A stretch of 37,070 nucleotides of DNA from a virus: positions 1-37,070 of the IMG/VR virus record IMGVR_UViG_3300030331_001708; one strand, given 5' to 3'. The position numbers were made by a program, and so were the translations under genes. Under the pieces are notes generated by a model. That model did no database searches, was not told the DNA's origin, and was given only the letters and a program-made list of their open reading frames with translations. Shown piece by piece: positions 23,909 through 29,882 of this stretch; position 1 is the first letter of the stretch; the number at the start of each line of letters is the position of its first letter.

Positions 23909-24125
23909 GAAAGAAGGATTAGGAAAGTGGTTTGATGAGGATTGGCGAGACGTCAAAACTGGCAAAAAGTGCGGTCGGCAAAAAGGAGAGAAAAGAGGAT
24001 ATCCAGCTTGCCGACCAGCAAAAGTAGCCTCTCGTATTTCCAAAAAAGAAGCAAAAAAGAAAACAGGAAGAAAACGAGTAAATTGGTCAGTTACCGCCTC
24101 TGGTAGAAAAAGGAAGTCTGCTTAA
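23901..24125 (+). CDS. Small basic protein, DUF5872-like
   Basis: A 74-residue protein that starts with GTG at 23901 inside the previous gene. KKEGLGKWFDEDWRDVKTGKKCGR and YPACRPAKVASRISKKEAKKK match a family (I recall DUF5872) often fused to or next to the YPSAYANAYA protein. The two cysteines could chelate metal. Fusion elsewhere suggests the two proteins act together. Its stop overlaps the next ATG. Confidence 0.75.
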   Translation: MAKKEGLGKWFDEDWRDVKTGKKCGRQKGEKRGYPACRPAKVASRISKKEAKKKTGRKRVNWSVTASGRKRKSA

Positions 24126-26446
24126 TGGAAGGTTTGTTACAGATGAGTTCTATTCCTTACTTTGATGAGCTATCTCCAGAAGGTCAGGCTCAGAGAAGAA
24201 AAGAGGGAATGGAAGCTCTCTTAAAAGCCCCTAAATACGGAGCTTTGATGTTACCAGCATCGGGGGTTACTGAAATGATGGGGTTAATGGCTGATCCAGA
24301 AGGTGAGGGTTATTTACCTTCCACAATGAGTTTACTGAAAGAAGGCAGATTTGGTGATGTTGGGTATCAGCTATTAGGCGGTTTAGGTGATGTTCTATAT
24401 GCCGCAAGTCCTGTTATACCGCCATTGGCTATACCAGCAACAGCGGCTAAGGCGGCAAGGGCTGGAAGATTAGCAACTCAAGGTGAATCTTTAGGTTTGT
24501 TAACTGAAGATGAAAGAGTCAAACAAGTGAAGGAATTACCTTTTTTTGGTACAGAAGAATTTCCAGCCGAAACTTTATTAGGTGAGGAAATAGTTTTTAT
24601 TCCAGCCGATAGGATGGCAACTGGATTTGTTTATGAAGGACTGGCGGAAGCTCCGATAGACCAACCAAGAGGCTTGAGAGGTGGTCAATTGTTTGGGACA
24701 ACTAGGGAATCTGTAGAGCAAGGTTTGGGATTTGCTTCTTTGGATGAGGCTATAGCAAAGAGAATATCTCAGTCAGGTGCTAAGTATGGCATAATAGGAG
24801 CAATGGATACCGCTTCACAATTATCTAACAGAGACATGGCAAACATTGTTGCTCAACAAGTTCAATCCTACATAAGAGAAGGGTTAATTGCATCTGAAAA
24901 TGTATCTAAATTAACACAAAGATTAAAAGATAGAGGGAAAGTAGCTCAAGATGCAATATCAAAGAAAAAAGCTGATGGCAAAAAACCAAATTCTGGCGAC
25001 ATTGATATTGCAAAATTAATTGATATACCAGATATTGATAGCCCACAAATATTTGATTGGTTAGATTCTCAAACTTTTGAAACTAGAAAACAATTCTCAT
25101 TAATTTTAAATCAAGCTGGTAGTAGAAATCTGGGAGCACCCTCAATTGATAGAATTTTGTCTGATACAATTGATCAGAGACAAGCTGGAGTTTTGCCCTT
25201 ACAGGGTAACACCCTTATACGATTAACAGGGGAAGCTCCTATAGATGTCGCTAAAGAGGGTGGATTTCCACATCCATCTTATCCTATAGGAATTTTAGGT
25301 GAGCCAGTAGCTCAAATTAAATATGGAGTAAGAGGGGAAGATTTATTTTCTGAAAAAGTAGCAGAATGGTTAGAAGGGGGTGGTCAACCTCCTAGGTTAC
25401 AGAGAATGATGAATATGAGCTTACCAAAGACAAGTGTTACACCTGAAAAACTACAGTTATTTCCAGAGGGAGCACCTGAAGCTATAACCTCAGCAAGACA
25501 AGCAAGACTGTTGGTTGATTTTATGAACGGTAATTGGAGAACAACGCAACAATCTGTGAAATCTGGCGGTTTAGGAAATGCAGAAATCATAAGAGCATAT
25601 AAAGATAATATGTTGTCAGAAACTCTTACCCCATATTCAGAAGCAGAGTTAAAAAAAGGTGCTCAAGACGGTTCACTCGTTTTTTACGGTTTAGGAATAG
25701 GAAATCCTCAAGCCGTAAAAAATATAAATGGCAATGAAGGAAAAATTTATTTTGGTTTGAAGAAAAATACAGACTATAAAGAATTATATGGTATAGATAA
25801 CCCAGAATTAACGCCTAACGAAGTTTCTATAGTAGGTGTGATGAACAATGAACTAGGACAAGCTGGGGCTAGTTTGGGAGTTCCTACATCGATGTTAAAA
25901 GCAATAGAAGAAGGTGCTACTGTTCTGGATGCTTACGCAGTTCCTAGTCAAAAGAATCCTAACGGGTTTTTGCCAAAATATTACAGTCAATTTGGTTTTA
26001 GAGAGGTAGAAAGAATACCTTTTGATGAAAAATATGTTAGAAATCCAAAATTTGGTGGTAGCGAAAGAAAATATAAAGCATTGATTAGTCAATGGAGAAA
26101 GTCGGGTTGGGATGAATCAATGGGCAATCCTGATCTGGTAATTATGAAATGGAGAGGAAATGATAATGATAGACCAAATGCAGTTAGAGATTATGTCGGA
26201 CAAAGTGTTGAAAGTTTTGGGGCAAAGGATACAGGGATTGTCACAAGGACAGAAGAAAAGCTTGGAACACGCTTTGACGGAAGTTCTGGAGGACAACAAC
26301 TTTCAAGCGGCACAAGTATCGGAAGCGGAGATAGAGGGGGCTTACTCGGTGATGGAAGCGTTCTATCCTCAAGATTCAATAGAGCTATCAGAGAGATTCC
26401 AAGCCTTACAACAACTGAACAACGTGCGTTAGGATTATTAGAATGA
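24125..26446 (+). CDS. Large virion-associated protein of unknown function
   Basis: 773 residues; ATG at 24125 overlaps the previous stop, with an alternative ATG at 24143. N-terminal region (1-120) is Gly/Ala-rich with hydrophobic helices; the centre (~130-470) is mixed; residues ~580-690 contain VSIVGVMNNELGQAGASLGV, VLDAYAVPSQKNPNGFLPKY and YSQFGFREVERIPFDEKYV, a GNAT-like C-terminal module seen in large phage virion proteins (recall). The last ~75 residues are Gly/Ser-rich and overlap another frame (26166-26432). Position between terL and portal and size suggest an internal head protein that enters the host; activity is unknown. Confidence 0.7.
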   Translation: MEGLLQMSSIPYFDELSPEGQAQRRKEGMEALLKAPKYGALMLPASGVTEMMGLMADPEGEGYLPSTMSLLKEGRFGDVGYQLLGGLGDVLYAASPVIPPLAIPATAAKAARAGRLATQGESLGLLTEDERVKQVKELPFFGTEEFPAETLLGEEIVFIPADRMATGFVYEGLAEAPIDQPRGLRGGQLFGTTRESVEQGLGFASLDEAIAKRISQSGAKYGIIGAMDTASQLSNRDMANIVAQQVQSYIREGLIASENVSKLTQRLKDRGKVAQDAISKKKADGKKPNSGDIDIAKLIDIPDIDSPQIFDWLDSQTFETRKQFSLILNQAGSRNLGAPSIDRILSDTIDQRQAGVLPLQGNTLIRLTGEAPIDVAKEGGFPHPSYPIGILGEPVAQIKYGVRGEDLFSEKVAEWLEGGGQPPRLQRMMNMSLPKTSVTPEKLQLFPEGAPEAITSARQARLLVDFMNGNWRTTQQSVKSGGLGNAEIIRAYKDNMLSETLTPYSEAELKKGAQDGSLVFYGLGIGNPQAVKNINGNEGKIYFGLKKNTDYKELYGIDNPELTPNEVSIVGVMNNELGQAGASLGVPTSMLKAIEEGATVLDAYAVPSQKNPNGFLPKYYSQFGFREVERIPFDEKYVRNPKFGGSERKYKALISQWRKSGWDESMGNPDLVIMKWRGNDNDRPNAVRDYVGQSVESFGAKDTGIVTRTEEKLGTRFDGSSGGQQLSSGTSIGSGDRGGLLGDGSVLSSRFNRAIREIPSLTTTEQRALGLLE
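26166..26432 (+). CDS. Nested small protein inside the 773-residue gene (+1/+2 frame)
   Basis: An 88-residue frame lying wholly within the 3' end of the 773-residue gene, in another frame. GGAGAGG (26151-26157) sits 8 bases before the ATG at 26166, an ideal ribosome site. The product has a normal, helical composition (LSQGQKKSLEHALTEVLED, then AQVSEAEIEGAYSVMEAFYP), whereas the host frame is low-complexity Gly/Ser over the same bases. This asymmetry suggests the nested frame is a real gene and the long protein's tail is overprinted or vice versa. Confidence 0.55.
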   Translation: MIDQMQLEIMSDKVLKVLGQRIQGLSQGQKKSLEHALTEVLEDNNFQAAQVSEAEIEGAYSVMEAFYPQDSIELSERFQALQQLNNVR

Positions 26447-29606: not shown

Positions 29607-29882
29607 ATGAATGAGGGTAAGGTTCGTGAAAAAATTGATAGAGGATCTAAAGCGGAAGCATTACTTCGCAACGAATTATTACAAGAAGCATTTGATTATT
29701 TGGAAAGTGAATTTATTAGTGCATGGAAACAAAGTGCCATTCAAGATACGCAAGCTCGCGAGAGATTGTATTTATTATGTCAAAACTTATCAGCCCTTAA
29801 AAATTATATCGCAAATGTGGTTGAGGATGGTAAATTGGCTAAAGCAACTCTACAAGGGTTGAAAACAAATAAGAAATTTTGA
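29607..29882 (+). CDS. Small head-region protein
   Basis: A 91-residue helical protein starting 1 base after the previous stop. RGSKAEALLRNELLQEAFDYLE and DTQARERLYLLCQNLSALKNYI form two long helices. It resembles a family of short proteins between portal and scaffold in marine podoviruses. Probably aids head assembly (inference). Confidence 0.7.
   Translation: MNEGKVREKIDRGSKAEALLRNELLQEAFDYLESEFISAWKQSAIQDTQARERLYLLCQNLSALKNYIANVVEDGKLAKATLQGLKTNKKF

Follow-up and report, generated by a model that had tools for sequence, protein, structure and literature searches.

We identified an 88-codon open reading frame (ORF) within a longer phage gene that, judging from sequence comparisons, is very probably a genuine, conserved and separately translated gene. 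The window, that is, the whole 37,070-base stretch of virus DNA analyzed here, carries an outer gene (24125..26446, + strand) for a 773-amino-acid, apparently polyvalent-type protein in which a GNAT-fold domain is followed by a Gly/Ser-rich tail; terminase and portal genes, judged from their sequences, flank it. The nested gene (26166..26432, + strand, 88 aa) lies in the +1 frame and is predicted to encode a four-helix protein of a new family. It stops at TAG 26430–26432, so that the whole nested ORF is contained in the outer ORF in a different frame, and the outer codons past this stop (26433..26446, + strand) make up the end of a conserved outer motif, LTTTEQRALGLLE. The preliminary description had placed an 88-codon frame completely inside the 773-residue gene and read it as overprinting. 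The coordinates and the frame proved correct, and overprinting is supported by a frame that is open in 98 distinct loci and under purifying selection.

Start signals of the nested gene

Where would ribosomes enter the nested frame? The window contains the Shine–Dalgarno sequence GGAGAGG (26151..26157, + strand), spelled by the outer codons W-R-G and with an anti-Shine–Dalgarno pairing energy of −6.4 kcal/mol; as had been described beforehand, an 8-base spacer separates it from ATG 26166. The first ATG of the nested ORF, at 26160, is only 2 bases from this site and was rejected as the start, which makes 26166 the likely one. Across the family, W-[KR]-G codons spell the Shine–Dalgarno sequence where the last GNAT strand ends. 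Pairing of −4 kcal/mol or stronger was found at 98% of nested starts compared with 20% of other internal +1 ATGs, and the mean was −5.9 kcal/mol at nested starts compared with −2.1 kcal/mol at other internal +1 ATGs in the same genes.

In the model that we favor, ribosomes would initiate internally at ATG 26166, on a Shine–Dalgarno sequence embedded in the W-K/R-G codons with which the last GNAT strand ends, and would produce a separate four-helix protein of about 75–150 aa. Over this stretch, other ribosomes would stay in the outer frame and make a flexible Gly/Ser tail or a linker between domains. Because such a linker tolerates almost any sequence, a nested gene can be well conserved within it.

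Could the nested frame instead be read only as a C-terminal extension, through a programmed +1 frameshift that yields two versions of the outer protein? The two frames meet just past the GNAT domain, in most loci a few codons ahead of the nested ATG are also free of stops, and the few codons between a conserved TGA (aTGAaatgg) and the nested start leave some room for a shift. However, this TGA shuts the nested frame at MKW, and in the L027–L033 group an extra stop immediately before the ATG leaves no codon to shift into. The Shine–Dalgarno sequence and the ATG are conserved at the correct spacing, and free-standing copies (described below) carry a Shine–Dalgarno sequence of their own without a detected outer gene. 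A frameshift is, on this evidence, very improbable.

Conservation and selection in the overlap

A first scan with the conserved outer domain returned 79 viral loci and one bacterial contig, and removal of duplicates left 60 distinct loci, the window counted among them; nearly all relatives are metagenomic contigs. In all 60, the outer motif MKW[KR]G is directly followed by a +1 frame of at least 77 codons (cut by the contig end in two of them), with the nested ATG (GTG in L023) at +1 codon 5–7 after MKW. A second scan with partly different patterns added 38 distinct loci, every one of which matched the pre-built nested HMM (E 2e-11 to 2e-29) and kept the nested frame open, at outer identities of 40–99%. 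Consequently, loss of the nested frame was observed in none of the 98 distinct loci. The preliminary description had held that stop codons in the nested frame of close relatives, with the outer frame conserved, would speak against the gene, and no such case was found among them. The outer gene downstream of the nested region ranges from a few codons to more than 1000.

Nested HMMs built with one group left out still detected every omitted group, which indicates that the nested proteins form one family. Applied to the outer frame of the overlap, this test recovered relatives as well, with mostly weaker scores, as expected if the DNA is homologous and the nested frame is better conserved than the outer one. 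Searches elsewhere gave little: no useful relatives emerged when INPHARED phages were searched by tblastn with the nested and outer proteins, and a plasmid search yielded none. Microbacterium phage Caron was rejected, as it showed only a remote GNAT (25% over 176 aa) without the nested frame. On a proteobacterial MAG contig (L092:3555-3850), a decayed outer fragment retains only the GNAT end, and the nested frame is intact at 84 codons; this decayed copy was the only one in 398 bacterial genomes of the same phylum. In a phage with backbone DNA ~79% identical (L006:4923-6410), the first ~115 outer codons are kept and the remainder is replaced; the GNAT domain and the nested gene are both missing from the sequence examined, and at least one relative thus does without the two as a module.

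Is the open +1 frame a mere by-product of composition or of outer-protein conservation? Synonymous-codon shuffles of the window's outer gene gave on average 5.6 +1 stops over the 87 overlapping codons, and 0 of 2000 shuffles left the frame open. Over 28 representatives, the shuffles predicted 72 nested stops and none was observed (the +2 frame over the same bases has 170), with a product of open probabilities of 6e-44. In a few groups (such as L046 and L067), the shuffled outer gene does stay open in 60–70% of trials, as the by-product reading would have it. No antisense frame is conserved across the overlap, and Rfam revealed no RNA element. Codon usage fits the outer frame slightly better in 41 of 57 cases and does not settle the relative age of the two frames.

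The substitution pattern bears directly on this question. In close pairs with a comparable upstream region, substitutions at outer positions 1/2/3 numbered 132/53/67 in the overlap compared with 52/23/298 in the 390 bases upstream. Similarly, a second, independent set of 12 pairs gave 158/61/53 in the overlap and 105/58/441 upstream. The chi-square p values for these patterns (6e-39 and 8e-49) ignore relatedness, which inflates such simple tests; 11 divergent groups nonetheless agree. Outer position 1 is the wobble position of the nested frame, and the pattern is therefore the one expected of a gene translated in that frame. A comparison of synonymous change in each frame, which the preliminary description had proposed, led in the same direction: over 18 pairs, dN/dS in the overlap was about 0.40 for the nested frame (95% bootstrap 0.26–0.56) and about 0.92 for the outer frame (0.54–1.48), by a simplified OLGenie-like count with few SS sites (method idea, PMC7531306). 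Between the window and its closest relative, the nested protein is identical and the outer one has four amino-acid changes.

By these counts, selection in the overlap acts mainly on the nested frame, leaving the outer amino acids there nearly unconstrained. With substitutions reversed towards the nested wobble base, an outer frame nearly free of constraint, the probability product given above and free-standing copies of the gene, the by-product reading is almost certainly wrong, the substitution pattern already sufficing to refute it.

Two further observations concern single positions and a second frame. The codon at 26172–26174 encodes a nearly invariant outer arginine, almost always CGA or AGA in relatives too; CGA is otherwise rare in these genes, and the GA of this codon doubles as bases 1 and 2 of a nested Asp/Glu codon that is mostly conserved. 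Elsewhere in the window, an 83-codon +1 frame (29611–29862) inside a 91-aa gene (29607–29882) is open in L002 and L006 too. It looks like a by-product, because in the comparison with L006 changes are most frequent at outer position 3 and conservation is higher in the outer protein.

The two proteins and the free-standing copies

What do the two frames encode? AF2 models the nested protein as four helices (pLDDT 86.8), in line with the ordinary helical product anticipated from the sequence. Nested proteins of the family contain 13% Leu and 4% Gly, and cysteine is nearly absent (fraction 0.001; none in the window protein). The proteins are mostly acidic (median pI 4.9), yet a basic group also occurs, and the family therefore has no conserved charge. 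The model has no significant fold match in PDB or BFVD, and searches of Pfam, PHROGs, NCBIfam and PADLOC gave no convincing family match, only scattered weak ones in one to three members each. The window's weak Pfam matches, cIII and COG4_m, are far under the cut-off and not common to the family, and they were rejected. Among the papers found by a partial literature search, none describes the nested gene in its title or abstract. The earlier remark that no description was known for this location thus stood against these databases.

Upstream of the overlap, the outer domain (25499..26182, + strand), whose last strand contains LVIMKW, is a GNAT acetyltransferase fold according to its AF2 model (pLDDT 89, pTM 0.87); the best 50 PDB entries listed are all GNATs or other acetyltransferases (Z 9.9–11.3). 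No Pfam model detects this domain, and most of the outer protein is without a Pfam match. The overlap itself is a Gly/Ser-rich tail or linker, with 16% Gly, 12% Ser and 11% Arg over the family. The preliminary description had called it Gly/Ser-rich filler, which holds for its Gly/Ser/Arg richness and near lack of constraint. It is not pure filler, however, as a conserved outer motif, L(S/T)xxxxxxLGL, is kept near or past the nested stop, which indicates that the outer frame is also read through. Many long outer proteins continue for hundreds of codons beyond the nested region.

Furthermore, the nested gene occurs alone. Two large phage contigs, L115 and L116 (155 and 212 kb; 15 differences in 6192 bases), each carry an 80-codon copy (L115:2980-3222, same coordinates in L116) that begins with an ATG at L115:2980, preceded by AAGGAG and a 6-base spacer. 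Similarity to the nested relatives starts at this ATG. All that is left in the −1 frame is an unused relic of 75 codons, still similar to the outer linker, and identity between the free-standing copy and a nested relative is 72% in the nested frame compared with 46% in the outer frame. A GNAT domain was not detected in the two records by a search run without a positive control, though the same profile matched the genome of L092. The neighbours are tRNA-Met, an RNA ligase (PF09414), an IS605-type transposase and a YqeY-like gene. That a nested gene persists in the absence of its host gene argues, more than any other single finding, for a product that matters by itself.

Possible functions and significance

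Could the nested protein act on the very protein whose gene contains it? The function is the weakest step of our model, in which the nested product would be a GNAT partner that, for example, holds the GNAT protein until it is packaged or delivered. We rank such a role (intragenic inhibitor, antidote or chaperone) first, though at somewhat less than an even chance. It is suggested by the unbroken association with GNAT, in 98 of 98 loci despite the variable downstream part of the outer gene, and by the precedent of intragenic antitoxins, namely the in-frame case of RpnS for RpnL (PMC10327210). The absence of both GNAT and nested gene from L006 fits as well, but their joint loss follows from the overlap itself, and the free-standing copies, with no GNAT detected, argue against a partner. 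RpnS, whose translation starts inside the RpnL gene close to its 3′ end, shares the RpnL frame and equals the C-terminal domain of RpnL (PMC10327210). The nested gene is similar in that a small protein would be translated from a start inside a larger gene, towards the 3′ end; it differs in using another frame and in encoding a protein unrelated to the outer one.

Alternatively, the nested gene may encode an independent early or host-takeover protein (e.g., anti-defence) that is merely lodged in the linker, a plausible reading that we rank next and hold with less confidence. It derives from the free-standing copies, which moved without the outer gene and lie in an accessory region with tRNA-Met, the PF09414 RNA ligase and the YqeY-like gene. 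On the other hand, in the window and its close relatives L006 and L011 the locus lies in the head-gene region, and there was no convincing PADLOC match, although PADLOC covers defence rather than anti-defence proteins. We consider the partner and the independent readings close.

The closest known arrangement is Rz/Rz1 of lambda, in which Rz1 lies within the Rz gene in the +1 frame, where Rz has a genetically flexible linker; embedded spanins are often missed by annotation (196 o-spanins had not been identified), and separated versions exist (PMC6139136). Our case is alike in being a small +1-frame gene within a phage gene, over a flexible outer linker, with separated versions and a record of being missed by annotation. 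It differs in that the nested protein lacks the lipobox cysteine (the lipoprotein signal is absent) and that the host gene encodes a GNAT-bearing head-region protein rather than a lysis protein; no sequence relation was found.

The outer gene, in turn, appears to resemble those of phage polyvalent proteins (Iyer 2017, PMC5512222) in its multidomain build, its head-gene region and its GNAT fold, and in the existence of very large versions with other domains. Polyvalent-type features here are the GNAT fold, the terminase–portal position in the window and a Zeta-toxin match in L080, where a 2094-aa outer protein (L080:170-6451) has this match downstream of the GNAT/nested region. Two GNAT families are described among polyvalent proteins, and the GNAT section and a term search of that paper gave no mention of a nested gene (PMC5512222). 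A more specific scenario, which we consider unlikely as a whole, is that the new small-protein family on the linker of GNAT-bearing polyvalent proteins, spread over many lineages of tailed phages, codes for a partner that acts in cis on a delivered acetyltransferase effector, as its inhibitor or antidote, and that large phages captured the free-standing copy, perhaps as immunity.

What does the finding mean for phage genomes? Gene finders rarely call nested same-strand genes, and a whole conserved phage protein family has therefore stayed invisible: Pfam, PHROGs and NCBIfam all lack it, although all 98 relatives examined keep its frame intact. The free-standing copies, with their identifiable relic of the outer linker, represent a nested gene escaping its host gene, an event that, to our knowledge, has seldom been documented. 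A second, well-conserved gene can find room in the Gly/Ser linker of a large phage protein, and such linkers offer a simple place, with a simple test, to seek further nested genes.
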